Shown piece after piece: positions 1 through 52,788 of a DNA stretch of 64,000 nucleotides. The stretch's first letter is position 1; every line of letters starts with the position of its first letter. The notes beneath the pieces were generated by a model. That model was not told the origin of the DNA, did no database searches, and saw nothing but the letters and a program-made list of their open reading frames with translations. This DNA is from Adineta ricciae (taxonomy: Eukaryota > Rotifera > Eurotatoria > Adinetida > Adinetidae): assembly GCA_905250025.1 (NCBI GenBank), contig CAJNOJ010000312.1:49484-113483 (forward strand), in the 5' to 3' direction. The position numbers and the translations under genes are program-made.

Positions 1-1304
1 GACAATACGTGGCAATTCTGGTGGCCAATTGTCCTTAACAAATTCTTCGACATTTTTGAAAAGTTGTGGAAAAAATTCTGTGTTCTCTTTTCTCAATTGT
101 TCACGTTCGACGCACGTACGATTTTCGTGCAATTCATCGTCGATTAGTTTGCAATTCGCGCATACACCACGTCCACAAGTAAGACATGTTTGATAATCTT
201 TGTTACGAAAGATTAATCCCTCACACGACTCATTCGGGCAAAATAAAAGATCTTTGTCTGTCGCATTGGTAGGACAATTAAGATAGTTTTGAATAGCAAC
301 TTTGCATAATTCAACTAAATCGCCACGATTACTGCAGAACATCTCGTTGATATCTTGAATATGAATATTCCGTCTACATCTTGGACAACTCAACGGCAAT
401 TTCTTCAATGTGCTCACCGCACATCGGCAGTAGGCGTGACCACATATACGAAATGTTCGAGTGGCAATTCTTTTCTGTTTACAAAACGAACATTCACGCG
501 TATTATCTTGTTGATAAGTTATATCAGACATTTCTGAACCATCATCGTCATTTATGTTAACGAACATCTTCAGTAATTGTTCGATGTCGGTCTTACAAGT
601 AGTAACTGCTTCTATTGTTGCGTTTGGCTGCGCATAAAAAATGATGGAACTTGTTCGACGATCAAGAACGACACTGCAACCTTTAGATTGATACTTTTTA
701 TCGATTTCTTGTAATTTCACATCGGCAGCTTTTTGACGGCCGAAATAACCGACAGTTGTAGCATTCAAATCGTAAACAATGAACCGCTGATCAAATTCGT
801 CTGCGTAGTCACCAATACGACGCATTAATTGACCTTGTTCGATTTGCGGTCCACAGATTTCTACAATAGCGCCATATTTATCTTTTTCTTCGCACGATAA
901 TTTCAGTTCTTTCGCCCACGTTTGTATTATATTTTGATCGAAAAGTTCTTTGAACAGATATTTTTGCCGATTATCAATTAATTTAATGGCAATCGGTGAT
1001 GTTATTTGATAGAGCATGGCTGCAGCAAGAGCAGTTGCAGACGGGAAAGCGTCCGAAAAATAATAACGCGCAGCTTGATAATCACCGCGCTGCGGCAGAG
1101 GATGATGTTCTTCACGAACGTGAAACTTGTTACATATATACGAGATTGACTTGTCCAGATCTGGATAGAGTTCTAAATGTGTGACAGTAACACATGCTGA
1201 GGTACGTACTGTCCAAAAAGGCCATACTCTCGAATAAATATCATGTGCATCCTTTCGACTCCTTGCCGTTATCAGAAATTCGGAAGGTTCTACTTGTAAT
1301 CTTT
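1..1304 (-). CDS. Partial second version of the DEAH-RBR-PARP-WWE gene (RBR region)
   Basis: This minus-strand fragment runs open across its length and is a few percent different from 2892-4197. It encodes the IBR-like segment (about 130-330), the RING1-like Cys cluster (about 350-530) and the linker upstream. Both ends are artificial: the left is the window edge and the right is the n at 1305, where an unrelated plus-strand gene begins. It is either the other allele of the gene at 1894-10185 or a neighbouring paralogue. Because the contig that follows contains the whole homologous region, this is not a simple end overlap like the 221 bp joins. The zinc-binding Cys residues seen in the longer copy are kept. 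Confidence 0.8.
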
Positions 1305-1305
1305 N

Positions 1306-1594
1306 GATAGCGCTCGTCGGTGCAACAGTTTTTGCTTATTTCAAATACAAGAAAGGTATTCAACATCGTCGCTTATTCAATGATCCAGAAATGAACAAAT
1401 GTTCAACGGCTTCAGCAAATGAAACCAGTGCTGAAAACAATCAAGTGACTTCGGCATCGGAAACAACATCGATCACTCGCCTTAATTCGCCATTACCAAC
1501 AGAAACACCACGAGCTGGATCGGCCGCTCTTAGTGTGGTCAAATTGAGTGTCATGGATATAAATCAATCAATGCCTCTCGTTGAACTTGCTTGA
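1306..1594 (+). CDS. C-terminal fragment of a membrane protein, unidentified
   Basis: An open frame from 1307 to the stop at 1592-1594 encodes about 95 residues: a short hydrophobic stretch (IALVGATVFAYF) followed by a basic KYKKG motif and a Ser/Thr/Asn-rich tail ending in VELA. This looks like the last transmembrane helix and cytoplasmic tail of a membrane protein. An AATAAA-type signal lies near 1700. The 5' part is lost at the n at 1305. It converges on the helicase gene whose stop is at 1894. I do not recognise the family. Confidence 0.5.
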
Positions 1595-1893
1595 ATGAAC
1601 TCATAAACTTATTCCGCGTTTCCCTAGTTAGCGTCCGATCACTTTTCCCCCTCCAACTCGGCTAATTCCGAGCTACCATGACTAGTTATAAAAGTATAAA
1701 AATAAAGTTTACTTTCAAAATCATTTTCATGAAATTGGATACTTCGGTGCTTCTGACAATTTCAAAGCAGAAAAATCACCATGATTAACAATCTACTTGA
1801 GCATTTTTCCCTCTCAAAATGCATAATATTCAGCTTTCAAATGATTTTTATTAATTAAAAAAAGTAGTTTCAAAATTCTTTCATAAAACTTGT

Positions 1894-4800
1894 TCATTCA
1901 CGTTTTATCTGTCGTGGTTCATTCGAGACCGTATTGGTTTGTATGCCCATGACAAAATTGATTTCATATAGTTCCGGTCGACCAGGAAATTGAACACGGA
2001 ATTTACTCGAACCATCGCCTTTTACATAGGCTTGATAGGCGTTCTCAATGTTTTGTTGTACCATAGTTTCGTAAGGTGTCCATAGTTTGTGTTCATTTTG
2101 GTAGAACCATCGTACTTTGACATTAAGTTTCGAGTCTTCCAGACGGCTTCGTTCGATATTACGTGGAAAATGAGTTTTCATATTAGTTTGTTGATTTGCT
2201 GCGAAGTCAATTTGATACGTTTGCGGAAGATCATCGATATAACGAATAAGTGGTGGTGTGACGAAGGATGATGGGCCTTTGTGAAGTTTCCATTTTTCGT
2301 AAGACTCTTCCAGTATCTGATTGATCTTGTCATTGTACGGCTCGAATGTCCGATCGTCTTTGCGCCAAGCCCAGCGGAAAGGTGATGTCCATGTCTTCAA
2401 ACAGCTGGTTTCTGGAAGTTGACTTGTACACGTTGAACTGAGAGTAAACGAAAATTTCAACTTATTTTCCGCCTTTTTTCCATATGTAATTACAGCTACC
2501 GGTAGATTAAACGCAGTCTTCCAATCAGTTGGATTATTCACTACATAGCAAAAATCTTTCTGGGTTTTGACTCGATCACATTTCAGAACATAAGCGACAA
2601 TCATCATATAACTTTCAGACGATGGATTATCCTTGATGGAATAGCCATGTGAAATAGTTGCTTTAACACCGAAGTATTCTCCACTTCCATAGACTTGACC
2701 TGAACGTCGACTAGGGTCGAAACCAGAATAACAAATCGATTCCACGGCTTTCGCTGATGTACCATGAAAACCAAAGAAACCTTGGCTTATATCAGGTGGT
2801 GGTTGACATCCCAGTTCACGAACGCCTTCATAAAAACATCTCAACGATGGACTTTTTGATGGTTGTTCGAGATACGGATTGCAAATAATACCGACAATAC
2901 GTGGCAATGCGGGTGGCCAATTGTCCTCAACAAATTCTTTGACATCTTTGAAAAGTTGTGGAAAAAATTCTGTTTTCTCTTTTCTCAATTGTTCACGTTC
3001 GACGCACGTACGATTTTCGTGCAATTCATCGTCGATTAGTTTGCATTTCGCGCAGACACCACGTCCACAAGTAAGACATGTTTGATAATCTTTGCTACGA
3101 ATGATTAATCCTTCACACGACTCATTCGGGCAAAATAAAAGATCTTTGTCTGTCGCATTGGTAGGACAATTAATATAGTTTTGAATAGCAACTTTGCATA
3201 ATTCAACTAAGTCGCCACGATTACTACAGAACATCTCGTTGATATCTTGAATATGAATATTCCGTTCACATCTTGGACAACTCAACGGCAATTTCTTCAA
3301 TTTGCTCACCGCACATCGACAATAGGCGTGACCACATATACGAAATGTTCGAGTGGCAATTCTTTTCTGTTCACAAAACGAACATTCACGTGTACAATCT
3401 TGTTGATAAGTTATATCAGACATTTCTGAACCATTGTCGTCATTTATGTTAACGAACATCTTCAGTAATTGTTCGATGTCGGTCTTACAAGTGGTAACTG
3501 CTTCTATTGTTGCGTTTGGCTGCGCATAAAATATGATGGAACTTGTTCGACGATCAAGAACGACACTGCAACTTTTAGATTGATACTTTTTATCGATTTC
3601 TTGTAATTTCACATCGGCAGCTTTCTGACGACCGAAATAACCGACAGTTGTAGCATTCAAATCGTAAACAATGAACCGCTGATCAAATTCGTCTGCGTAG
3701 TCGCCAATACGACGCATTAATTGACCTTGTTCGATTTGCGGTCCACAAATTTCTACAATAGCGCCATATTTATCTTTTTCTTCGCACGATAATTTCAGTT
3801 CTTTCGTCCACGCTTGTATTCTATTTTGATCGAAAAGTTCTTTGAACAGATATCTTTGCCGATTATCAATTAATTTAATGGCAATCGGCGATGTTATTTG
3901 ATAGAGCATGGCTGCAGCAAGAGCAGTTGCAGACGGGACAGCGTCCGAAAAATAATAACGCGCAGCTTGATAATCACCGCGCTGCGGCAGAGGATGATGT
4001 TCTTCACGAACGTGAAACTTGTTACATATATACGAGATTGACTTGTCGAGATCTGGATAGAGTTCTAAATGTGTGACAGTAACACATGCTGAGGTACGTA
4101 CTGTCCAAAAAGGCCATACTCTCGAATAAATATCATGTGCATCCTTTCGACTCCTTGCCGTTATCAGAAATTCGGAAGGTTCTACTTGTAATCTTTCACA
4201 GGTGGGATTAACAGAGATCTTCGTATACCTTTGGTGTTTCTGCGAAAAGATCGTGATCAAGTGTGTTTCCTTGCATAATTCATTTGCGAGTAATTGACAC
4301 GCTCGATTGCATTGCTGCCGATCATCGAAAGTGATACGGACGGTAGTGCTGCCTATTTTATAATTATTAGGATCAGAACGCAAAATAGTAATGTGTTGAG
4401 GATCATAATCGGGTCCGAGAAGTTTTCTGACTTGTTGCTCTTCGATGTCAGCTGGTAAATTCGTCAGATGTAAGACAGATAAGCCTTTTTTGCCTTGCCG
4501 CTTACAATCTACAATGGAACTGCCTAGGATTGTTTTGACTTGTTCTTCATTTATTGATTTATCTGCTTGAACTTTCAGTATTAACTGACGACCCCATGTA
4601 GTCTTTTCAGGCATATGAACGCAATCAAATACACCAGTTTGATGAGGATTAATATAGTATTTTGGTAAATCTTTCATAACTCGAGTGAAAGCATCGGCAG
4701 ATCCGAGCATAACGAAGCAAGGTGGCGCTTCGTAACCATTGCTCGCTGCTTTAGGTTCAATGCATGAACGAAAACTATGCTCTCGAATAGTCTGACGAGG

Positions 4801-7586
4801 ACAACCAGCGTTTGACTCAAACCATTCATAGAATTGTTCCAATGTCTTGCATGGGACATGTTGCAAGTCAACTCGATTTTTCGAAAGTGTCGTATGATAT
4901 ACGGTGTCGATACGTATACAAGTTAAACCGCTGTTAAATGACGCTCGAATCGGTCCACAATCAAGGCAACGATTACGATCCAATAAATCTAGGCGTGTGG
5001 ATTTTGCAACAACTTTCAAGCTANAACCAGCGTATGACCCAAACCATTCATAGAATTGTTCCAATGTCTTGCACGGGACATGGTGCAAGTCAATTCGATT
5101 TTTCGAAAGTGTCGTATGATATATGGTGTCGATACGTATACAAGTTAAACCGCTGTTAAATGACGCTCGAATCGGTCCACAATCAAGGCAACGATTACGA
5201 TCCAATAAATCTAGGCGTGTGGATTTTGCAACAACTTTCAAGCTACCACAAATTTCATCACTGTCTGTACGTTTACCCCATACGGTGAATTTGCACTGAT
5301 ACTGATCGTATTCGTAGGCAAGCCATTTCGACCACGGTTTTTTATCATAGTTTTTCATTTTCTTTCGTATTTCGATATTCCATTCCCAGCCGACGTTCTT
5401 TAATTTTTTCAGTGGCGATAAAGTTTGAAGTAGTTTATCGTTTGATGGGTGAATAGGGTGTAAACGTTCAATCACATAGTCATTACTAGGCAATTGAGTT
5501 ATTGACATAGCGATAAAATGAGTTTTGTTTATTCGACGTTGGACAAAAACACTTGTTCTAGTGACTCGTGCTCGAATCTGATTCTTTTGTAGATAAACGC
5601 CTTCGTTCGGTAGGTGTGCTATGAGAAGACATCCATAATTTTCAGGAAAATATTTTAGCAAATATCTGCCTATAATGTCATTCTCGATCGCTTGTGTTAA
5701 GAAACCAGGACTGAGTTTCCAACATGTGTTTTTGATTATTTTAATAAAAAAATCCGATGAATTCTCCACATTGTACAGAACTTTGCTGTTTAAATTATTC
5801 TCTAAGCTGTACGCAACGCGGCATGGGCGACATGCTTGCTCTCGTTTGCTAGTTACTTTCTGACATTTTAAACAGATACGAGACGTAAGATCTACCTCAC
5901 CTATTTTCTTCCATTGATTGTAAACCGTAGTGAAATAAATCAGGTCACTTTCGTATTGCTGCGCTCCTAATGAAACGCGACCAAGAGCTGCTTGCTTGAG
6001 TTCTTTGGTTGCGCCGCCCATAATAAATATTGATCCAGGTGCCGTTAAAATGGCAACGATAGTGGCAGTTAGGTCAATGATAGGACCGTGTTCCAGATAA
6101 GTGTCGACTAGAAATGCACACAGACGCGGATCGAGACCAAGTTCGCTGAAAAGCTCACCGCGTCGGGTGAGGCTTCTGTTGTTTTCTTCCAAACATGATA
6201 GTTCAGTTAATAGTGTAAATGACGCACGCAAATCTGTATCCTTTGGACGATCCAGAAAATGAAATGACGCTNTGGCAACGATAGTGGCAGTTAGGTCAAT
6301 GATAGGACCGTGTTCCAGATAAGTGTCGACTAGAAATGCACACAGACGCGGATCGAGACCAAGTTCGCTGAAAAGCTCACCGCGTCGGGTGAGGCTTCTG
6401 TTGTTTTCTTCCAAACATGATAGTTCAGTTAATAGTGTAAATGACGCACGCAAATCTGTATCCTTTGGACGATCCAGAAAATGAAATGACGCTGGATCGA
6501 GTTTCAAACGAAGAAGTTGTAGAGTGACCAAATCAAGAGACGAACGTTGAATTTCTGGTTCGATATTATCACGTTGCAAATCATCTTCTTTGTACAAACG
6601 GATGCAATGTCCGGCTGCTGTTCGACCTGCTCGACCGGTTCGTTGGTTTGCAGACGATTTTGATATACGAACCGTCTCGATAATAGTAAGTCGACGTTGA
6701 GGATCGAATCGAGCCTCTTTGGCCAAACCAGAATCGATTACCAAACAAGTATTTTTAATTGTTAGCGATGTTTCAGCAATATTAGTGCAGAAAATTACCA
6801 GTCGTCGATGTTCAGATGGATTCTCATCGAACTGGAGAACTTGAGACTGTTCTTCGGGCGAAAGCGATCCGTGTAATGGTAATGCAATACAATTCTCGGG
6901 TATGCTTGCGGTAAAAAGATTAATAGCCTGCTCAATTTCTTGTTGACCTGGAAGAAATACCAGAGTATGTCCTTCGTGGTGACTGTGAACTTTCAATAAA
7001 GTAGACACCACGTGGTCTTCTTCAGAGTCATCTGGTTTCGGAATATATTCAGTTTGAACAGGATATAATCGACCGGCGACGCAAAGTGCTTGACTATCAT
7101 GTTTAGTAAAAAATCGAAGAAATTTTTCAGGTGCGATTGTAGCCGAAGCGATAACTACGTAAAACTCAGATGGTCGCTCGAGCAATAATAGTTTTGCTAT
7201 GCCCAAAACAATGTCAGTATTAAGTGATCGTTCATGAGCTTCATCGATAATCAAAACTTTCACGTCATTCAATTGACGGTCTAGCTGACTCTTTTGTATC
7301 AAAGCAGCATCAGTCATGAAAACGATACTTGTGCCAGGTACTTGGTTAGTAGTGCTCTGAATGCCTCTACGACCTACCTCGTAACCGACCGATTCGCCCA
7401 CAGATATTCCATCGTACTCATTGGCAACACGACGTGCGAGTGCGATGGCTGCAAGTGCTCTAGGTTGAGTGCAGACAACGAGCCCACGGAAATATTCAGC
7501 TGCATATTGAGGCAACTGGGTACTTTTTCCACTCCCCGTTTCAGCTGTAACGACTAAAACACGTTCTTTGCTTAATCGTTGACAAA
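1894..7586 (-). CDS. DEAH helicase / RING-IBR / PARP-like / WWE fusion protein, main and C-terminal part
   Basis: This is the 3' part of a giant two-exon gene that starts at 10185; it is open throughout apart from n joins. In protein order: helicase motifs (Walker A near 7530, DEAH near 7243, SAT near 7140, QRTGRAGR near 6630), an HA2-like region, an RRM-like segment (about 4220-4480), a RING1-like Cys cluster (about 3240-3410), an IBR (about 3030-3190), a PARP-like catalytic region with FHGTS (about 2755) and YGSGEYFG (about 2680), then two WWE domains (about 2220-2380 and 1940-2110). It probably binds RNA, remodels it with ATP, and marks proteins with ubiquitin and/or ADP-ribose. Plants have DEAH-RBR proteins; the added PARP and WWE parts are the oddity. 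Joins at 5024 and 6272 repeat 221 bp each in frame. The third PARP catalytic residue is not clear to me. Confidence 0.85.
4803..5245. repeat. 221 bp contig-end overlap at the n of 5024
   Basis: 4803-5023 is repeated at 5025-5245 with a handful of substitutions, the single n lying between them. The copies translate to the same in-frame peptide twice. It is an unmerged contig overlap, not a protein repeat. Confidence 0.9.
6051..6493. repeat. 221 bp contig-end overlap at the n of 6272
   Basis: 6051-6271 recurs at 6273-6493. The overlap length equals those at 5024, 34339 and 36624, which points to an assembler parameter. Confidence 0.9.
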
Positions 7587-8901
7587 NTGGCAACGATAGT
7601 GGCAGTTAGGTCAATGATAGGACCGTGTTCCAGATAAGTGTCGACTAGAAATGCACACAGACGCGGATCGAGACCAAGTTCGCTGAAAAGCTCACCGCGT
7701 CGGGTGAGTCTTCTATTGTTTTCTTTCAAACATGATAGTTCGGTTAATAGTGTAAATGACGCACGTAAATCTGTATCCTTTGGGCGATCCAGAAAATGAA
7801 ATGACGCTGGATCGAGTTTCAAACGAAGAAGTTGTAGGGTGACCGAATCAAGAGACGAACGTTGAATCTCTGGCTCGATATTATCACGTTGCAAATCATC
7901 TTCTTTGTACAAACGGATGCAATGTCCGGTTGCTGTTCGACCTGCTCGACCGGTTCGTTGGTTTGCTGATGATTTCGATATACGAACCGTCTCGATAATA
8001 GTAAGTCGACGTTGAGGATCGAATCGAGCCTCTTTGGCCAATCCAGAATCGATTACCAAACGAGTATTTTTAATAGTTAGCGATGTTTCAGCAATATTAG
8101 TGCAGAAAATTACCAGTCGTCGATGTTCAGATGGATTCTCATCGAACTGGAGAACTTGAGATTGTTCTTCGGGCGAAAGCGATCCGTGCAATGGTAATGC
8201 AACACAATTCTCGGGTATGCTTGCGGTAAAAAGATTAATAGCCTGCTCAATTTCTTGTTGACCTGGAAGAAATACCAAAGTATGTCCTTCGTGGTGACTA
8301 TGAACTTTCAATAAAGTAGACACTACATGGTCTTCTTCAGAATCATCTGGTTTCGGGATATATTCAGTTTGAACAGGATATACTCGACCAGCGACGCAAA
8401 GTGCTTGACTATCATGTTTAGCAAAAAATCGAAGAAATTTTTCAGGTGCGATTGTAGCCGAAGCGATAACTACGTAAAACTCAGATGGTCGCTCGAACAA
8501 TAATAGTTTTGCTATGCCCAAAACAATGTCAGTATTAAGTGATCGTTCATGAGCTTCATCGATAATTAAAACTTTCACGTCATTCAATTGACGGTCTAGC
8601 TGACTCTTTTGTATCAAAGCAGCATCAGTCATGAAAACGATACTTGTGCCAGGTACTTGGTTAGTAGTGCTCTGAATGCCTCTACGTCCTACTTCGTAAC
8701 CGACCGATTCGCCCACAGATATTCCATCGTACTCATTGGCAACACGACGTGCGAGTGCGACGGCTGCAAGTGCTCTAGGTTGAGTGCAGATAACGAGCCC
8801 ACGGAAATATTCAGCTGCATATTGAGGCAACTGGGTACTTTTTCCACTCCCCGTTTCAGCTGTAACGACTAAAACACGTTCTTTGCTTAATCGCTGACAA
8901 A
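6273..8901. repeat. 1.3 kb overlap of contigs flanking the n of 7587
   Basis: 6273-7586 is homologous to 7588-8901 with scattered third-position changes and no indel that breaks the frame. Both contigs begin at the same base of the gene. They look like two alleles of the helicase core. Confidence 0.85.
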
Positions 8902-10185
8902 ACTCGTTTTGGCAAGCCAATATAGGTAGGTTTGCTTTCTTCCTTTCTTCTTGACGTTGTTCCAATGTCTTTAACGTTTTCGATGATTCAAAAGGACCTT
9001 TCTCGTTGGTATACCTTAAAGCACCAAACAAGACTCGATCGGATGGATGCGATGTATGCGGACAAGCAGGATTCGCGCATTTTCTGCCATCTTGGCATGG
9101 ATCCCAATTGGTAGGATGAAGATTGTGACAGTAATAGTAACCACAATTGACACCTTTATCGCATTCCATCGATCGTCCCGGTGGATGATTCTCCGAGCAA
9201 TCGAGATCTTTGCAGCCAACGCCAAAAAAGCATACTTTTCGGTTTGATGGATGTAGACAAGTACATGCACTATTGTAACAGTGTAGACCGTATATACAAT
9301 CTTTTAATCGATTATCCGAATGTAATGCATCACACTGCCACGCTTGACCATTGTCAAATTCAGTGCGAACAGGTGGACGGGTTGAAGGATGTAAACATCG
9401 GCATCCCGCATCTGTGCAATTCGCTGCGTTTTTACATGGCTTTGTTCTACCAATCGGATGGTCAGCTTTGCAATCAAAATTTTCGCAGTGAGTACCGTCA
9501 TTGCATGTTCCAGTTTCGTCAGTTTTTCTTGAAAAAGCATAACTCGGTAAGCACACAGAAGGTCTCGAATGTATAGCAGGCGTGTTGGTACTACGTATTT
9601 CTCGGATGACAGGTCTTTGATCGAATTGAAAATTACGATCACTTTGACGCGATTGACGTGAAGTTGCTGAATCTGCGGTTGTGATGCGGTAATTATTGCT
9701 ATGTTTATCATCGTCACTACTTTCTTGGTCTCGAAATATCGATGCACGGTGTGCTTCAAATGTAGGAAAAAATTCGGAGTTAAACTATGTGCTACACGAC
9801 CAAATTCAATGCAGAATGACTTACTCGATGTAAACATTGCCGGCTTTTGTGCAGAGACGAGACGAGGCTTCACATGAGATTGAGTTTCAGACATCTGTGG
9901 TCGAGAAGTTGGTGGACATAACGATCTACTTCTACCTTTTTCGTTGGTCTTCACCGCTTTACATTTTATTTCATAGGTGCAAACCCTTTTCCCATCCCAC
10001 CGTTGTGCAAACCTATTAGCGGCACTTTCACTTTCGAAGCTGTTTATCCATGCAAAAAAATTCGGACCGGATTGACTTCTCGGTACGGCAACTCTACTTT
10101 CTTCGATGCTAAGTTCCTTGGCTAACTCGCCAGTCTCGACGAGACGTCGTAGACACGTCACTTTCGCGCACCATATTGTTACCAT
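7588..10185 (-). CDS. 5' half of the DEAH-RBR-PARP-WWE gene: RRM-like, CCCH zinc fingers, helicase core
   Basis: Exon 1 (9825-10185) starts at an ATG shared with the copy at 17302 and encodes an RRM-like domain (FAWINSFESESAANRFAQRW). A GTAAGT donor follows 9825 and the acceptor lies before 9729; the splice restores one frame in both copies. Exon 2 carries about six Nab2/ZC3H14-style fingers (C-x5-C-x4-C-x3-H followed by P) across roughly 9050-9510, then the helicase: Walker A near 8850, DEAH near 8555, SAT near 8460, QRTGRAGR near 7945. The contig ends at 7588, homologous to 6273, so 7588-8901 repeats 6273-7586. It most likely forms one gene with 1894-7586. The fingers suggest poly(A) or other RNA binding; that is inferred from the finger type only. 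Confidence 0.85.
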
Positions 10186-10973
10186 GTATCGACGATTTCT
10201 ACAGAAATTGAGTTATGCACGATGAAAAGTAAAATTTCGTACACGAGAAACTACTTGAATGTTTGCTCTCAACGACAACATCTTCTTTACGTTGGGGAAT
10301 TTTTTTCTCTTTCCTAACAAATTTTACTTATTTTTCTCGCACCGACAAATTAAAAAAAAAACAGTCAACTTCAATTACACACTCCTATGCGATCGAAACA
10401 GTGAGGTATTCTTATTAGTTGGAACTCGATTTTGCCATTAAGGGGGGATACCCCCCCTGCAACCTGCCCTCAAATTTTGTCAGTTTGTAGAGTTGATCCC
10501 CAAGGGTCTAGGGTTAAAATATTTCGCGGGTCCGATGCTCTTTGGCCGAGTTATAAAGATTTCAAAATTTGAAAAAACCGGTTTTTAATGCATTTTCGGC
10601 TCAGTGCCAAAAGTAATTCTTGCCAAGTCCCGTATTTGAACAAATCGTTTCAAAAACCAATTTTTTTGGGAATATGTTTGTTATGTTCATGTCCACCGGA
10701 TAACATATTTTCTCCCCGAAAAAAAATCTCTTCGCAAAAATTGCCTACGTGAAACTGAATTTGGGTGGTGTGAAAACATAAAAATTTCGAGAAAACCAGT
10801 ACGGATTCGTTTCTTCGTTTCCAACTAACATTCCAACACTTGTTCCACAAACAGCTCAAGCAGCTCTACTGATTCCAATGAGAAAAGAAGTTTCACCCAG
10901 TCTCACCCAACCTCACCCACACCCACACCCTCATAGAACAATTTGTTGCGCTTGTTATTAAATGTGGGCGAAG
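10186..10973. other. Upstream region of the helicase gene with an allele-specific insertion
   Basis: 10186-10440 is conserved at 17303-17555 and is probably the promoter and 5' UTR of the minus-strand helicase gene; it is AT-rich. After 10440 the two versions differ completely until about 10935. No convincing gene is present. Confidence 0.5.
10441..10934. mobile_element. Insertion-like segment found in only one version, ending in telomere-like repeats
   Basis: The homologous locus at 17556-18708 holds different sequence. This segment begins with a G6-ATA-C7 palindrome and contains no coding signal. It ends with CACCC-rich DNA including CCCACACCCACACCC at 10916-10930, the complement of the TGTGGG unit of Adineta telomeres. 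Homology between versions resumes immediately afterwards, near 10935. It could be a fragment of a telomere-associated element or a non-homologous repair filler; family not identified. Confidence 0.35.
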
Positions 10974-15973: not shown

Positions 15974-17302
15974 CAGCTGTAACGACCAAAACACGTTCTT
16001 TGCTTAATCGTTGACAAAACTCGTTTTGACAAGCGAATATAGGTAGGTTTGCTTTCTTCCTTTCTTCTTGACGTTGTTCCAATGTCTTTAACGTTTTCGA
16101 TGATTCAAAAGGTCCTTTCTCGTTGGTATACCTTAAAGCACCAAACAAGACTCGATCGGATGGATGCGTTGTATGCGGACAAGCAGGATTCGCGCATTTT
16201 CTGCCATCTTGGCATGGATCCCAATTGGTAGGATGAAGATTGTGACAGTAATAGTTACCACAATTGACACCTTCATCGCATAACATCGATCGTCCCGGCG
16301 GATGATTCTCCGAACAATCGAGATCTTTGCAATCAACGCCAAAAAAGCATACTTTTCGGTTTGATGGATGTAGACAAGTACATGCACTATTGTAACAGTG
16401 TAGACCGTATATACAATCTTTTAATCGATTATCCGAATGTAATGCATCACACTGCCACGCTTGACCATTGTCAAATTCGGTGCGAACAGGTGGACGGGTT
16501 GAAGGATGTAAACATTGGCATTCTGTATCTGTGCAATTCGCTGCTTTTTTACATGGCTTTGTTCTACCAATCGGATGGTCAGCTTTGCAATCAAAATTTT
16601 CGCAGTGAGTACCGTCATTGCATGTTCCAGTTTCGTCAGTTTTTCTTGAAAAAGCATCACTTGGTAAGCACACAGAGGGTCTCGAATGTATAGCAGGCGT
16701 GTTGGTACTACGTATTTCTCGGATGACAGGTCTTTGATCGAATTGAAAATTACGATCACTTTGACGCGATTGACGTGAAGTTGCTGAATCTGCTGTTGTG
16801 ATGCGGTAATTATTGCTATTTTTATCATCGTCACTACTTTCTTGATCTCGAGATATCAATGTACGATGTTCTTCAAATGTAAGAAAAAATTCAGAGTTAA
16901 ACTATGTGCTACACGACCATATTCAATGAAGAGTGACTTACTCGGTGTAAACATTGCCGGCTTTTGTGCAGAGACGAGACGAGGCTTCATATGAGATTGA
17001 GTTTCAGACATCTGTGGTCGAGAAGTTGGTGGACATAACGATCTACTTCTACCTTTTTCATTGGTCTTCACCGCTTTACATTTTATTTCATAGGTACAAA
17101 CCTTTTCCCCATCCCACCGTTGTGCAAACCTATTAGCAGCACTTTCATTTTCGAAGTTGTTTATCCATGCAAAAAAATTCGGTCCGGATTGATTTCTCGG
17201 TACGGTAACTCTACTTTCTTCGATACTAAGTTCCCTGGCTAAGTCGCCAGTCTCAACGAGACGTCGTAGACACGTCACTTTCACGCACCATATTGTTATC
17301 AT
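15974..17302 (-). CDS. 5' end of the DEAH-RBR-PARP-WWE gene, second version
   Basis: Exon 1 (16942-17302) and exon 2 (15974-16846) match 9825-10185 and 8858-9729 with a few percent change. The splice sites, RRM-like domain and all CCCH fingers are kept; the contig ends just inside the helicase Walker A region. In this version the frame is also open upstream to 17437, but the ATG at 17302 is the one shared by both. It is probably the allele that continues into the contig 6273-7586, with which it overlaps by about 45 bases. Confidence 0.8.
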
Positions 17303-18744
17303 ATATCGACGATTTCTACAGAAATTGAGTTGTGCACGATGAAAAGTAAAATTTCGTACGCGAGAAACTACTTGAATGTTTGCTCTCAACAACAATATCT
17401 TCTTTACGTTGGGGAATTTTTTTCTCTTTTCTGACAAATTTTACTTATTTTTCTCGCACCGACAGATTAAAAAAAACAGTCAACTTTAGTTACACACTCT
17501 TATGGGAGCGAAACAGTGAGGTTTTCTTATTAGTTGGAACTCGATTTTGCCATTAATCGTAAACCAAACAATGAAAGGCACTCTCTGTTTACACAAAAAT
17601 ACGCACATACACTTACGAATCACACAAAAAGAGGTAGATGTATAATTTTGCGGTTTACTTTCTAATAACTTACAAAAAATATTTTTTTACAGTCGTCATC
17701 GCTAATGAACTGCCTATAGTTATATCTCTGAAAAGAAAAAAACCGATGTCACGAAAATCGGCTAAAAATTGCCGATTTATCGTGTTTTTTTTTCTATCGA
17801 TTTATGCGATATATCCTCTGTATGCTAGGTATGATTGAACCTGTTTAGTTTCATTCATGCATATATATTTAGTCATTCATATTCATTATGAAATTCAAAT
17901 ATGTATACATGATTCCACACGATCAGAAATTAAGAAACAATTAAAGTTTTAAAACAACAAAAAAGAGAAATATTTAACAAAGACTTATACAGTTAGTACA
18001 GTAATAATCTGAAATAAAAAAAAGCAATCATATGTAATCTAAGTCGAGGAAGATGGAATCAAATAATATTCTACTAAAATAAACATATTACCTTCGATGG
18101 AAAACCTTTTTTTCAATCTGAAAATGAAACGACAAAGACATAAATGAACGAAACGTTTGTTAAGTTCGATCATTATATAAGTCGTCCAATGTTAAATAAG
18201 GCACACTAGCGACTCTGTTAAGAAAAGAAGTTCAGCTATATGGATTGCAGCAAAAGCAATATGCTAAAAAAATGTATGAGAAGGACAGATAATACTAAAT
18301 CTACCAAAATATAATTTTTTTCTCAATTAATTAATGAATTGAATGTTAATTACAAAAATCGGCGATTAACGACGATAAATCGCTCTGATATATCAACGAT
18401 TTTTATAGTATATATTATCCGTTCTATGAACGCTGGAAAATCCTGATTAATCGGTGATTTTTTTCCTATATCTGATTATTTACGATTTTACGTTAACTTT
18501 TTCGAAAATCGACAAAATCGCGCCGATTTTCATGACATGGGAAGCGATACAAACTGGAATGTTATTTTTATCGTGAACGTTAGGTGATCAGCGAAATTGA
18601 ACCGATGGGCAGATGACGCTATAGTATACCAAGATATTATGACTAAGTAGATTGCTTTTGCGTAGAAAGTGAATGGTAAACAGAATGTATGAAGAAAGTT
18701 ATCATAGGACAATTTGTTGCGCTTGTTATTAAATGTGGGCGAAG
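17303..18744. other. Intergenic region specific to version 2 in part
   Basis: 17303-17555 is the conserved upstream region of the helicase gene. 17556-18708 is AT-rich sequence absent from version 1 and includes, at 18360-18530, repeated CGATTTTT/AATCGG-type motifs. No gene was found; it may hold a degenerate transposon. Confidence 0.4.
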
Positions 18745-32943: not shown

Positions 32944-35900
32944 CTAGTCAGATTTCATACATATCAATTTATGTTTGTATAGTTGCCAATCCATTGTTTG
33001 ACATTCTTTGGTGCAATAACGTGCTTGTTTGCATCTACTACAAACATGCAATGCGTTTGCTTGCCCACAACATCGACACATGTTTACTACTCGTGCCGAT
33101 TCTTCCTCCATGACGATTGATGCAAGGTCATCAACGCGAACTAATGGTTTCCAATCACCTGCTGCTAATCGCAAATAAGGATTTATAATATGTATTTTAC
33201 TACCTATTGAATATAGGTTTCTCGTTAAATATCTGCCTTCTTCCTTTGGAAAACCGTATATAAACAATCGTTCGCAATCTAGGTTTTCATCTTCAACGAC
33301 GAGATGTATCGATGGAATCCAGGTATATGCTTCTTCAATGATTCTCACGGAAAGAACATATCCTTCATAGACATGATCTTTCGTTGGGTTCATTTCGCTC
33401 AGAGATATCGATTTCAAACCAACTAACGATTGGGCTGCCGTCTGTTTCGTTCGTGGTAGGTAACTGAATGACAAAAAGCCATATGGATCACTCTGGAGTT
33501 GTAATGACGTAGATTCCCATTGACGATGCTCTGTAATAACTGCCACTCGATGTCGATCTGTGAGACGTATTCTGTGGTCAACATCAGTGGACGTATTTGT
33601 TTTCAATAGATTTTTTGCGTCAAATGCAGCTTTAAGCAATACTTTAGTATTGGAGTGGTAAGGTAAGAAGCACGGTAGTTGTAACCTTTCAGCTTCTTCA
33701 CCTTTTTCATAAATTTCTTTAGTTTCTTTAATAGTTCCATTTAGACGTTCATCTATAGATTCCAGAGATGACCAAAGATTGGAACAGACCGATTGCAAGT
33801 TCATATTATTCATACCTAAATACAATTCATAAAAAAAAACAATTCTTTTGATCAAAATGCTTGTAACCCTTCAATTACAATTATCGAGTGATGAAAAAGT
33901 GATTAGCTTACCTGGTGACAAGTCCGACATATTACGTTCAAAATAACAACTAGCCATTGCATAATAAGACTCCGGCACCTTTCGATGATCCTTAGGAGCG
34001 ATCGCCAGGAAAACTTTATATGCTTCGATCGCTTCGTTCATATCAGCACCCAGCAGACGTAATGCAACTGCTCTAGGATATATAAGCTTGTAACTATTAG
34101 GATCTATCCGTAGACCTTCATTAGCTTCGTATAGAGCATTTTCGTATTTATTCATCCAACCGTACACGTTCGCACTTAATTCGAAAAAGATAGCTGATCC
34201 GGGATATTTCTCTTTACAGCATTGAAGAAAAGCAAGAACTGATTCATGAGAATCCATATGTAATACGGCATAGCATATCCGAGCACCTTCATCAAGTTGA
34301 GATTTAATATATATTTGTGGATTACAACGGCCAAGCACNTCATTAGCTTCGTATAGAGCATTTTCGTATTTATTCATCCAACCGTACACGTTCGCACTTA
34401 ATTCGAAAAAGATAGCTGATCCGGGATATTTCTCTTTACAGCATTGAAGAAAAGCAAGAACTGATTCACGAGAATCCATATGTAATACGGCATAGCATAT
34501 CCGAGCACCTTCATCAAGTTCAGATTTAACATATATTTGTGGATTACAACGGCCAAGCACACTGTCAACAATAGCAATCACTTTTTCCTTTATTTGCATG
34601 TTTGGATATTGTGCAACAATATGTTCAAGGCGAAAACATTTGGAAAGCTCATATACAACTTGATTTTCTTGTTCTTCTGTTAACATTTCAAAATCCATAA
34701 CTATATTTAACACCTCTGCAAAATGATCAATAGCATTACACAATATCTTGGCTGTTATTGAACCACGATTTGCATACTCATTCAATGTATCATATTGATA
34801 AATATAGGGATACTTATTGTCAGATAATTTAAATACACTTCCTTGTGGTTTCACAGAGTTAATTAAATGCTTGATCTGTGCAACTCTGTTTAGCACGTCA
34901 GGCGGTGTGTGATCCATGAATTCTATTGCTCTATCCAAAGATCGCTCAAATACCTCACGATTTGCTTGAGCAACAATATTGCCGGCTTCGCATGCTCGAG
35001 CATACCAAATCTTTGCCATTTTTAAATCACCTTTGTCTACCAGTAATTCGGCTAAAGTCAACATAGCATTTGGATCACCTCCTCTCGATGAGAACTGCAA
35101 TAATTCTTCGGCTTTCTTTAAATCTCTCTCAACACCAACACCTTTCTGATACATTAATGCCAAGTTATTGGCTGATCGAGCGCTGCCATGCTCTACGGCA
35201 CGCTGATACCAGTACGCAGCAATAGCTAGATCTTTATGAACACCAACGCCATCAGCATATTTGAGTCCCAAAGCATGCTCAGATTCAACTACACCGAGAT
35301 TTGGGATAACTTTGTATATGGGATGCTTCGGCGGTTGTGTGGCTGCTTGTTTATACCATTTCAGAGCTACATCGTGATCTTCTTTCACTCCTAAACCACG
35401 CTCAGTCAATCGAGCTATGTTATACATTCCCTCAGCATTTCCCTGTTCTGCTGCTCTAGCAAAGTACTTGGCAGCTTGCTGATAATCTTGTTTAATGCCA
35501 ATATCCCCGTGTTCATATTTATGTCCTCTGACGACGTCCGCCATCGCTTGATCATACTTTTCACTGAAAGCGTGCCCTAATCGCACTTGCTGAGGATCGC
35601 CACCGAATTTTTCTTGTATTTCATTTAACTGTTCAACCATGGTTTTCGGCTGTAGTCTTGGGTCTAGATGTTCCTCTCGTAATTGTCGATAAACTGTCTG
35701 TCGACTTCCAGCTAAAGCATTTTGTATTTGACTGTTTGTTGGATCAAGAGCTAATGCGCGTTCGTACGAAGTAATGGCTTTTTCGTGGGCGTTCAGAGCT
35801 GCGTGTGCTTTTCCAACACGAAAATGCCCTTTCCACCATATTGGCGAAAGCTTTCGAGCTTCTTTGGCTTCTTGTAAAGCTCGATATCGTTCATCTGTTA

Positions 35901-36867
35901 AATCATTCGTTTCCGACTTGTTTGAGCTGTCGGACTTTTGTTCATGCAATGCTAAACGACTAGCAGATATGTTCGAGTAGAAAATCGCACGATTATCAGC
36001 TGAAACATCCGGTAACGCGATCGCTTCGGTAAATAATGCAATAGCATTAGAGAACTTCACATTCTTGTGAGCTTGAGTCGCTAATGAATTTAATCGTAGT
36101 GCTTCCTTCACGTTCTCCTCATTTATCGGCTCGGGGCTTTTGCTGAATACATTATCATCCTTTAATTTACTGAATTCGCTTGGAACATCACCGAATGCTA
36201 CCAATATATTCGATAACTTGGACCAGAGTTCATTGAACTCTGCATCAGTGATCGATTTCGACGCAATATGAGCTAGCTCATTCCGGATAGTTCGCAAGCT
36301 CGCCAGTAGGGAATCTTCACTGTCAAGTTGTTGCACCTGAGTAATACTGAGTGTTGTTGGACGATCAATATTTAATAGCAGTGCTGCCAACATTGAAAAA
36401 TCCCATATATTGGAATCTCCAGCGGTAATCGCTGCCTCCTGCAGTGCTGTAAAAGTGAACTTTTTATTATTTTTGATGGTATTGATCAAGTAGTTCTTTC
36501 CACAAACAGCCGAATCATCCCATTCATTGCCGTTGTTGAACATGGCATAGCGATTTCTAAATAATTGACGAAGTAGAGGGCATGAACGCGCAACTAAGAG
36601 TTCTATTTTGAAATAATTTCGAANCCATATATTGGAATCTCCAGCGGTAATCGCTGCCTCCTGCAGTGCTGTAAAAGTGAACTTTTTATTATTTTTGATG
36701 GTATTGATCAAGTAGTTCTTTCCACAAACAGCCGAATCATCCCATACATTACCATTGTTGGACATAGCATAGCGATTTCTAAATAATTGACGAAGTAGGG
36801 GGCATGAACGCGCGACTAAGAGTTCTATTTTGAAATAATTACGAACGTTTGCTGAAATGTTGGTCAT
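32944..36867 (-). CDS. HEPN-TPR-Sel1-MYND multidomain protein
   Basis: Exon 1 (33912-36867) and exon 2 (32944-33815) are joined by a splice (CCAG/GTAAGC donor, TTTAG acceptor) that turns two apparent genes into one. Order: a DZIP3-like HEPN domain with RNELAH, which fits the RX4H RNase motif; TPR repeats (NVKEALRLNSLAT ... NAHEKAITSYERALALDP); at least five Sel1-like repeats (for example AAKYFARAAEQGNAEGM, LMYQKGVGVERDLKKA); another TPR-like pair; and a C-terminal MYND finger (CRCCGQ, CSRCKQARYC, HKLIC). It probably acts as a scaffold, with possible RNA cleavage by HEPN. Joins at 34339 and 36624 repeat 221 bp each in frame, so the real protein is about 150 residues shorter than the raw translation. 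Start at 36867 is shared with 41344. Confidence 0.8.
34118..34560. repeat. 221 bp contig-end overlap at the n of 34339
   Basis: 34118-34338 is repeated at 34340-34560 with few differences; assembly artefact inside the HEPN-TPR gene. Confidence 0.9.
36403..36845. repeat. 221 bp contig-end overlap at the n of 36624
   Basis: 36403-36623 is repeated at 36625-36845 and a third time from 41102. All three copies begin at the same base, as expected for bubble ends. Confidence 0.9.
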
Positions 36868-44850: not shown

Positions 44851-44851
44851 N

Positions 44852-47612: not shown

Positions 47613-48307
47613 CATATACAATACAATAACATCATTTTAGATGTTCACATCAACAGGTTCATTATTTCTGAGTGCTTTTTCTGTTGAATGAAAATCTAGT
47701 AAAACGAAAAGTTTAGATTATTTTGAATAAATTTTGCTTGTGAGAAAGTCACATGAAAGTTATATCAAGAAAGTAAAAAGGCGTACACTTGAATCTTTTT
47801 TTCAAGTTTTTCAAAGACGAATAAAAGAACTTAGTTATGTTGGTTCGGTGTAATAAATACAGATACTTTTGAAATTCATCCAAATCCCTCTTATTTACAT
47901 GGCATTTTCTTTATTATCAAATATTATTTTCCTTTCAAAAGTTGTCTGCAATGATTTTCTATCAACTATCATGTTAATTCATGAATATTCGTACATCTAA
48001 AAGTAGATGGGAAAAGTGAGCGACATACTAATTGTGAGTCACAATTTGAGACACGTGGAAATTAAAGTTACTATTGATGTGAATATGTGCTAATAAATGT
48101 TCGACCGACCGAACGAACGAAATATGTGTGCTCTGTCATCCGTGGCAATCTTTCTCTTCTTGTCTTGCATCAAGCAAAAAGAAAACATATTCATGATGAT
48201 CACATCAAGTTTTAGTTACCTAACATCATCCGTTTTGTCGACATAAGCGTAACGATATTTTCGAGAATTAGACTGGAGACATCTCAGTATTAATCCACCT
48301 ATTCAAA
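47613..48307. other. Intergenic region before the ADP-ribosyltransferase gene
   Basis: AT-rich, no gene. It should hold the promoter of the gene at 48308. Confidence 0.4.
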
Positions 48308-49200
48308 ATGGAATATACACAACACACGACAAATCGATTTGTTGATATCAAGTTTTATGAAGAAAAACTTTCACCTGTATGTGGTTATTGGAATGAGAAA
48401 CTCATACCACTCGAAGAGGCCCTGAAGTTCCTTAGGTCTCGTATGAACGAACTACAGAAAAATATTGAAACGGCCAAAAACGATTGTCATTTTCCATCAG
48501 AGCATGGCCTTACTCATGATGAATCAGCAGCTCTGTTTTTATACGCAACGGAAGAAAACGTCAATAGTTTGAACAGAATGTTGAATCAAACATTGCGATC
48601 GAGCGATCGTTCTAGTGTGAAACCTTGGTTTCCTTACCTTAAACTGCTTGATACGGCTGTCGCTAAATTACCTTCCGTTAGAAAAAATGTTTGGCGAGCA
48701 GTAATTAACGATGTCGATCGAGATTTCAAGAAAGGTGAAGAGTTTACATGGTGGACTGTGACATCATGCTCATTATCAATGGATACTGTTGCAAACCATT
48801 TATCTTCTGAATCAAAAATAACTCTGATCTTGATTGAAGCTATACATGGAAAATATATTTCTGGCTATACAAAACATCCTGATGAAAGTGAAGTGTTACT
48901 AATGCCTGGTACTGAATTACGTGTCGTATCGGATTCATTGGATTATTCAGACAGTATCAAGATTATACATTTAATGGAAATAAGTGAAGATAATGATGAA
49001 CAGCTGCCATCAGCTATGGCTATTATGAAAGCATCATCGCAAACTGAGGGTAAAATATACATATGAGAAGATATTTGCAATAAAGTTTCTTCCTAAATAT
49101 CTCTATCTTTCTTTCAGGATCTCAAGAGCAACAACGGCAATCACATAAATCGGGACTTATTTGCGGAGGTCGCCCTTTGACCTATTCCATTTGTACATGA
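48308..49200 (+). CDS. Arginine-type (R-S-E) mono-ADP-ribosyltransferase
   Basis: Exon 1 is 48308-49049 and exon 2 is 49118-49200, with a G/GTAAAA donor and a TTTCAG acceptor; splicing replaces the apparent tail KIYI with SQEQQRQSHKSGL. About 274 residues. The fold signature is present: Arg in VWRAV (about residue 136), the S-x-S motif in TSCSLS after EEFTWW, and the E-x-E motif in DESEVLLMPG. The enzyme would move ADP-ribose from NAD to arginine side chains. No signal peptide or GPI tail is visible, so it is probably cytosolic. Bdelloids carry many members of this animal-type family. Confidence 0.78.
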
Positions 49201-51618: not shown

Positions 51619-51903
51619 TCTCTATCCTTCATACCATTCTTGTCCGATCCTCTATATAATGAGATCGTTACCGGTATTTTCTTACCATAACGTCATCTAT
51701 CTTTCCACCAATTTCGCTTCGTGCGTTGCCATAACAGTAAAGGACATTTTTTTATATACGNTCTCTATCCTTCATACCATTCTTGTCCGATCCTCTATAT
51801 AATGAGATCGTTACCGGTATTTTCTTACCATAACGTCATCTATCTTTCCACCAATTTCGCTTCGTGCGTTGCCATAAAAGTAAAGGACATTTTTTTATAT
51901 ACG
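51619..51903. repeat. 142 bp contig-end overlap at the n of 51761
   Basis: 51619-51760 is repeated at 51762-51903 with about one change; an unmerged overlap inside the MULE-like element. Confidence 0.88.
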
Positions 51904-52611
51904 CGACCTTTTTTCGAAAGACATTTTGTGGAAGACGTTACTTTCAAAGACACCTTTTAAATAACAAAATTCCGGAAGACATTTTTCTGAAGGAAAAAAA
52001 CCCGAGGACATTTTTGAAAAGACGTCTTTTAAAGGATATTCACTGACGTATTCTCCTTTTCGACTTGCTTTACACGCCAGATCTCGGCATTGCATCAGCA
52101 TTTCTTGAATATCCTTCGGGATTGATAATCTGGCTTTTTTCTTCAGTATAGACTTCGAACATTGCGCCTTCACCGCAACTAACCATTGAATAAACGCATC
52201 ATAAGTATCATTCATATCGTTCGTGGACCAGTGGAGTTCCCATAGTCCATATGCGTAAGATAGAAACATATCGAAAGCCTTCCATGACGTTTTTGAAGCA
52301 TATTCTGTTTCGTTGTATTCACAGGATATGAAGCCAATCACTGGTTTGTGGTCACTTCTTGTTGAACCTTCGTATGTGTCCACTGTCACTTGTATACCCG
52401 ATGAAAAAGCGTAGTCGATTTTGCGCTTTGAACGACGGGATGTACAAGCATCGGTAACATAAGGAGCCAGTCCAACTTGATCTGCCCACTTGAGGAGGTG
52501 GCCGGCTTTATTTTTATCTTGGTCAAAGTCGACGTTGAAGTCTCCGAAAATGACTGATCTCGGTGTAATTTGAGGTGTAAGATCATCCCAGTCCCAAGTC
52601 TTACTGCCCAT

Positions 52612-52788
52612 GTAAAAAAAAAGGATAAATAATCAGATTAAAATTGATTAAATAATTGATTAAGAATCGCTTTAAATCATACACCTTTAATCGGTTTTTT
52701 CCCAGTTATCAATCGATTAAAATCATGCATAGTTGATTTCAATCACAAAATGCTGATTATTTTTAGTTTTTAATCAATACACGCTATC
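52612..52788. repeat. AT-rich AATCGATT-type repeat, target of the hAT insertion
   Basis: Dense GATTAA/TTAATC motifs continue on the other side of the hAT element at 56500-56600, so the hAT element landed inside this repeat. Origin of the repeat unknown. Confidence 0.45.

Follow-up and report, generated by a model that had tools for sequence, protein, structure and literature searches.

We analysed a 64-kb window of the genome of the rotifer Adineta ricciae (positions 49484-113483 of contig CAJNOJ010000312.1, here C312, inside a 130 Mb assembly), in which positions 1894 to 10185 of the minus strand encode an unusually composite protein. From the N-terminus, its parts are an RRM-like domain, CCCH zinc fingers, a DEAH helicase, a middle region with a second weak RRM, a RING1-IBR pair, a PARP12-like ADP-ribosyltransferase (ART) domain and two consecutive WWE domains. 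The first-pass annotation had read all of these in one continuous frame after a single splice at 9825/9729. The parts and their order on the minus strand hold, but the continuous frame does not, because the literal span crosses three joints marked by single Ns, at 7587, 6272 and 5024. The frame changes at 7587 and the helicase is read twice, once in the open reading frame (ORF) ending at 7541 and once in that beginning at 7605, which lie in different frames. When each stretch is used once (10185-9825, the intron 9824-9754, 9753-7809, 6271-5246 and 5023-1894), 2153 codons are obtained with zero internal stops. Exon 1 (9825..10185, minus strand) opens with an ATG at 10185 and holds the RRM-like domain, and it is followed by a phase-1 GT..AG intron of 71 nucleotides (9754..9824, minus strand). 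There is indeed one intron, but its true limits are 9824-9754; the predicted and the true acceptors lie 24 nucleotides apart, in frame. The phase-1 position also occurs in two further loci of the genome, C432 (56 nucleotides) and C427 (70 nucleotides).

The one-chain fusion is real, though the assembly displays it in a distorted form. The locus C432 is free of Ns across 9.9 kb and encodes, in two exons, a protein of 2199 amino acids with the same domain order and the same phase-1 intron. Because this gap-free locus encodes the whole protein, the joined architecture is real for the family, and the proposal of RNA-binding, helicase, RING-IBR, PARP and WWE parts in a single chain is borne out. 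C432 is 41-53% identical to the pieces of the window gene and is hence a diverged paralogue rather than a second reading of it, so that, for the window copy, an unbroken frame still depends on overlaps between the assembled pieces. At a third locus, C147, all parts follow in the same order over two overlapping allelic frames of 1927 and 1465 amino acids. Two tandem helicases in one protein, as the literal span might imply, were ruled out since the second is a 97.3% identical copy beyond the N joint.

The N-terminal half combines putative RNA-binding elements with the helicase. A seven-row profile of exon 1 matched the RRM of nucleolin at E=2e-5; antibody chains followed in the list, along with several RRMs of weak E-value. 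Pfam gave zero RRM matches in the three exon-1 stretches scanned (3/3). The term RRM-like, proposed at first pass, is therefore fair rather than certain. Six CCCH fingers of the pattern C-x5-C-x4-C-x3-H, the last with x4-H, lie at 9047..9505 (minus strand), against a mean of 0.07 matches in 500 shuffles. The pattern recurs in all six sequences examined (6 in the window, 10 in C432, 7 each in C427 and C147, 6 in C55 and 3 in C159), whereas shuffled sequences averaged 0.17 matches or fewer and never exceeded 3 in 500 shuffles; Pfam zf-CCCH_2 in C432 reached E=0.0024, below the cut-off. The helicase (7588..8901, minus strand, allele 1) matches Pfam DEAD and Helicase_C, with motifs from AETGSGKST to QRTGRAGR at 8860-7937 and DEAH at 8560-8549. 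Its end and the beginning of the middle region occupy 5025..6271 (minus strand), a piece that shares a 221-base overlap with each neighbour. Motifs I, Ia, II (DEAH), III, V and VI are kept in all five helicase-bearing sequences compared; the comparison had six rows, in which C159 was represented by its N-terminal part only and its degenerate helicase was read separately. The nearest solved helicases are PRP43, DHX15 and DHX8 (E about 1e-80), and a Pfam HA2_C match follows the helicase core at E=0.056 in C432 and 0.01 in C147, both below the cut-off. In the middle region, a second, weak RRM-like stretch (4243..4470, minus strand, limits set by eye) was located by the family profile, which matches the MIP6 RRM at E=1.4e-3; Pfam RRM_1 is found there below the cut-off (E 0.07-0.09) in C147 and C432 and is not listed for the window piece.

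RING1, of the C3HC4 type, lies at 3268..3384 (minus strand) with eight of eight zinc ligands invariant, and the IBR (BRcat) at 3004..3135 (minus strand). Taken together, RING1 and IBR have 16 zinc ligands, placed by eye, and all 16 are invariant in seven rows from five loci, of which two contribute both copies. PDB searches gave weak RING matches (E 0.046 or worse), and a Pfam RING (zf-RING_2, E=0.33) appears in one member of seven. Pfam IBR is found in 7/7 members when cut pieces are scanned (best 8.4e-7; 23.1 bits for the window piece against a cut-off of 24.3), and the IBR of HOIP/RNF31 matches at E=0.0017. The definition of an RBR ligase requires RING1, IBR and a RING2 that bears the active cysteine (PMC3305615). 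The pattern of RING2 (Rcat, with its catalytic cysteine) was matched in none of the seven family copies. As a control, we applied it to the eight best other IBR loci of the same genome, of which five were positive and three negative; since three of eight are missed, the pattern alone is no proof, and the scarcity of cysteines is the stronger point. The interval from the IBR to the HG of the PARP domain spans 72-75 amino acids and holds 0-3 cysteines, none common to all copies and none at all in C432 and C147, and a RING2 hidden between IBR and PARP was rejected on this ground. With RING2 not found in 7/7 copies, the protein is by definition not an RBR ligase, and the ubiquitin transfer by an RBR mechanism that had been proposed for it is unsupported. 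The PARP module occupies the place where Rcat would stand. A RING1-IBR pair is kept under selection with no detectable RING2, next to an ADP-ribosyltransferase.

The PARP12-like domain (2479..2835, minus strand; Pfam PARP 2e-9) matches PARP12 best in profile searches (E=3.4e-8), followed by PARP10, PARP15, ZAP (1.8e-4) and PARP14. The ART signature residues, the His of HG and the Tyr of GEYFG, are invariant in 7/7 rows, two of which stop before the domain end. ADP-ribosylation by this module is plausible because of these invariant residues. Two WWE domains follow at 2143..2388 and, at the C-terminus, at 1897..2121 (both minus strand; Pfam WWE 2.9e-22 over two stretches). In the PDB, the tail of C432 is matched best by the tandem WWE of DTX1 (E=1.9e-4). 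Both C-terminal WWE domains are present in the window gene, in its second C312 allele, in C432 and in C147; none is listed in the C159, C427 or C55 genes. The assignment of CCCH fingers, DEAH helicase, RING-IBR, PARP and two WWE domains in this order was accordingly sound.

The family survey was limited to this one assembly. A protein search for relatives, in which only the best candidates were scored, gave 29 matches, the weaker ones being other helicases. Five loci run from helicase to PARP (C432, C147, the C312 window, C159 and C427), three of which keep the WWE domains, and the whole plan is found in the window, in C432 and, across a joint, in C147. Further relatives are a decayed copy at C143 with six stops within the match and a family fragment at C427:25652-26968. 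The separation of the two halves into different genes, raised at first pass as evidence against the fusion, is seen in part, since C55 carries the front half alone and C159 and C427 are without WWE, whereas C432 and C147 are whole. At C147, an open frame (positions 727-1869 of the cut stretch) carries the last WWE of the C147 gene after unrelated sequence (GSSAEG..DFDFML), which by eye is like Mab-21/cGAS-type transferases and for which Pfam lists WWE alone; this frame may be an assembly join that left no N.

The genes of the family look constrained. The ratio of nonsynonymous to synonymous divergence (dN/dS) between allele pairs was 0.13 for the window helicase, 0.39 for the window C-terminal part, 0.18 for C147 and 0.30 for C427, at a synonymous divergence (dS) of 0.07-0.09, values that indicate purifying selection. 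Thirteen pairs were compared, with finite dS in eight and saturation in five. Four paralogue pairs gave a dN/dS of 0.16-0.23, which is poorly determined because their dS is 1.5-3.1. A foreign base composition was ruled out, as the GC content at third codon positions of the family ORFs (0.29-0.33) falls inside the range of the window's long ORFs (0.15-0.43). When the C-terminal 620 amino acids of C432 were compared with viral contigs, zero relatives were confirmed in a single-protein scan that reaches close relatives only.

Several known systems share parts of this architecture. The plan of helicase plus RBR belongs to an old subfamily that occurs in plants and also in animals, where it has been lost many times (PMC2904391). 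This Helicase (Plant I) subfamily of RBR ubiquitin ligases likewise joins a DEAH helicase, RING1 and IBR in one chain (PMC2904391), whereas the rotifer protein has no detected RING2 and carries PARP and two WWE domains after the IBR. Plant DEAH11 and DEAH12 are examples of the subfamily, and the comparison with them was made at the level of the subfamily description. The likeness to these plant proteins drawn in the first-pass annotation is reasonable for the helicase plus RING1-IBR, but it does not extend to RING2 in the seven copies. In PARP7, PARP12 and PARP13, CCCH fingers precede WWE, which precedes PARP (PMC4245714), and PARP13 (ZAP) senses RNA and carries zinc fingers and two WWE domains (PMC12337792). 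This group shares CCCH, WWE and PARP with the rotifer protein, with PARP12 the nearest in the PDB, but the rotifer order of PARP before WWE-WWE is reversed, and a helicase and RING-IBR stand between the fingers and PARP. In the Deltex systems (DTX1/2/4 and DTX3L-PARP9), a RING E3 ubiquitin ligase, an ADP-ribosyltransferase partner and WWE are also used together, whereas in the rotifer they share one chain with an RNA helicase, and IBR takes the place of the Deltex DTC domain. The closest working parallels for a coupling of ADP-ribose and ubiquitin are DTX3L-PARP9 and PARP14 (PMC11251020). Full-text searches of the open-licence literature on bdelloids, helicases, IBR and PARP gave either zero papers or lists in which none of the titles shown names the combined architecture, and publication elsewhere is possible; the excerpts of PMC6264785, PMC11258130 and PMC7943196 do not describe such a protein. 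The protein is an unusual fusion built of known parts, of which the missing RING2 and the PARP-WWE tail are the most telling.

What these proteins do might be approached from the established part, namely the one-chain architecture (through the paralogue), the helicase motifs, the zinc ligands, the transferase His and Tyr, the lack of a detectable RING2 and purifying selection. We lean slightly towards a host gene family that encodes a single-chain RNA-directed effector, likely for foreign-RNA surveillance, with the activities and the role deduced from the domain content. By analogy with the ZAP/PARP12 and Deltex systems, we infer that it could be an RNA-directed mono-ADP-ribosyltransferase and ubiquitin-pathway effector. 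The RRM-like domain and the CCCH array would select RNA, and the DEAH helicase would remodel the selected RNA or its proteins, while the C-terminal half would act on nearby proteins. There, the RING-IBR might hold an E2 ubiquitin-conjugating enzyme or ubiquitin, recruiting the ubiquitin machinery; the PARP12-like mono-ADP-ribosyltransferase might mark RNA-bound proteins or ubiquitin itself; and the WWE domains might read ADP-ribose and keep the complex on marked targets. Surveillance of foreign RNA would be the likely use, and the role might perhaps be antiviral or anti-transposon, as had been supposed from the start. ZAP cooperates with DHX30, a DEAH helicase, and with TRIM25, a RING ligase; if the proposed mechanism holds, the rotifer protein would resemble a ZAP-DHX30-TRIM25 complex in one chain. 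A more specific and tentative version, to which we give distinctly less credence, is that, in this lineage, a helicase-RBR protein exchanged its ubiquitin-loading RING2 for a mono-ADP-ribosyltransferase with two readers of ADP-ribose. The outcome would be an RNA-guided coupling, in one chain, of ADP-ribosylation and ubiquitin on RNA-bound proteins, directed against viral or transposon RNA and equivalent to a fusion of ZAP/PARP12 with a DEAH helicase and a RING partner. If true, one protein would merge functions that vertebrate antiviral defence divides among ZAP/PARP12, helicases and RING/Deltex ligases, and it would offer a single natural construct for probing the serial action of ADP-ribosylation and ubiquitin on RNA-bound targets.

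Several observations weigh against this effector reading. Of the 199 positions of the Pfam PARP model, only about 46-131 are matched, and no tool could place the third catalytic-triad residue. When C432 is scanned whole, Pfam lists DEAD, Helicase_C, PARP and two WWE; this PARP match scores 22.3 bits, below the cut-off of 26.7 (window, 37.7), and IBR is not listed, appearing only in a shorter piece (26.9 bits). The helicase of C159 has DEVY for DEAH and has lost motif VI, while RING-IBR-PARP is kept without WWE; in this copy, likely a pseudo-helicase paralogue (positions 2765-7618 of C159:64000-73900), the helicase is thus dispensable. C427 has an in-frame TAG inside PARP (positions 7940-7942 of C427:44500-54400), and its frame beyond this stop runs into a tail rich in asparagine, threonine and serine instead of WWE. 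C55 consists of CCCH and helicase only, in a 947-codon frame that ends in a stop (positions 2023-4863 of C55:127500-137400; N-free over 5.7 kb). The variants C159, C427 and C55 indicate that members of the family do not keep to a single design.

Three other explanations might account for the locus. The protein might be a variant Helicase-type RBR ligase like DEAH11/DEAH12, in which the RING1-IBR still serves as an E3 with the help of a partner protein, while the PARP-like part acts as a scaffold and has no catalytic function. Helicase plus RING1-IBR is the plan of that ancient subfamily (PMC2904391), the zinc ligands of RING1-IBR are retained and the PARP match is partial. This explanation is nevertheless unlikely in our view, given that RING2 was found in none of the copies and in five of eight other IBR loci (not in three), that a HHARI fragment comprising RING1-IBR failed to enhance the reactivity of the E2 (PMC3305615), and that the transferase His and Tyr are invariant in all seven rows. 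We rate as equally improbable a housekeeping role in RNA processing or stress granules, in which a DHX15-like helicase would be brought to RNA granules by its ADP-ribose-linked tail following desiccation or DNA damage and would play no part in defence. PRP43/DHX15 and DHX8, the closest solved helicases, are splicing factors, and purifying selection would suit such a role, but a family with several copies of varying structure, some of them degraded or truncated, might be more usual for conflict-type genes. That the joined protein is a scaffolding artefact stitching separate genes together is hardly credible: three N joints, duplicated pieces within the span and the frame shift at 7587 would be expected from it, but the N-free C432 contains the whole protein and C147 contains all parts in its overlapping frames. 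For the family as such, C432 refutes a chimera made solely by scaffolding.

A second multi-copy helicase-PARP family exists in the same genome, at C700 with relatives at C36, C132, C455, C608 and C209. The C700 gene (C700:23900-28600, positions 273-4182) comprises a 1201-amino-acid frame with DEAD, Helicase_C and the first half of PARP, the remaining half of which lies in an overlapping frame; the PARP domain is probably split between the two frames by an intron. Helicase and PARP in one frame were established at C700 only, not at its five relatives, and zero IBR or WWE matches were listed in domain scans of C700. The helicase of this family carries DEVH and is about 30% identical to that of the window family, an identity which suggests that the second family arose by a separate fusion, although the two families may have a common origin. 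Two helicase-PARP families in one genome might suggest that the joining of such activities is favoured there. Genome-wide, we counted 125 PARP, 57 WWE and 88 IBR matches, by exon and allele, so that these are neither gene numbers nor complete; the PARP and WWE matches resemble a large ADP-ribosylation gene set, counted in this animal alone. Another ADP-ribosyltransferase gene, of the arginine type (Pfam ART, E=2e-9), lies in the window at 48272-49063 on the plus strand.

The distortion of the gene follows from how the window was assembled, with 12 single Ns in its 64 kb. At 6272, the flanks repeat exactly 221 bases (6051-6271 and 6273-6493 are identical), and at 5024 a 221-base repeat has six mismatches (4803-5023 and 5025-5245, 97.3% identity). 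The Ns at 34339 and 36624 are flanked by 221-base repeats with three and eight mismatches, respectively, and that at 51761 by a 142-base repeat with 99.3% identity. At 1305, 7587, 15973, 28184 and 41101, the adjoining pieces are alternative copies of one stretch with 89-98% identity, and comparison of the flanks at 44851 and 50601 gave neither an overlap nor an alternative copy. The fixed 221-base overlap might be a signature left by unmerged de Bruijn unitigs, and the alternative copies might be the two branches of allelic bubbles placed end to end. Within the gene, 6273-7586 repeats the helicase stretch 7588-8901 at 97.3% identity and is taken as the assembled copy of the other allele. A second copy of 2893-4196 lies at 1-1304 (97.0% identity), runs on leftwards in C312 and, with this flank, gives a 765-amino-acid ORF, and a second copy of the 5' end 8857-10441 lies at 15974-17556 (95.6% identity) with a second RRM/CCCH frame; all three are on the minus strand. 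The divergence between alternative copies in the window is about 2-11% and the GC content is 28-44% per 2 kb, compatible with the values of Adineta ricciae (GC 35.6%, median homologous divergence 4.6%; PMC5916493). Joints of a single N, flanked by overlaps of 221 bases, string both alleles together, and frames read through them acquire false domain duplications, which bears on other findings from long frames that cross the joints of this window.

One such frame is found elsewhere in the window at 33874-36621 (minus strand), where 916 amino acids contain HEPN_DZIP3, TPR and Sel1 repeats and adjoin a MYND-finger frame at 32947-33870; since it spans the N joint at 34339, its repeats may be double-counted. 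A weak match to a LINE-type (long interspersed nuclear element) endonuclease/exonuclease (E=4e-4, below the cut-off) lies at 51898-52632 on the minus strand and a Transposase_21 (tnp2) frame at 59894-60793 on the plus strand, both of which are probable transposon remains.

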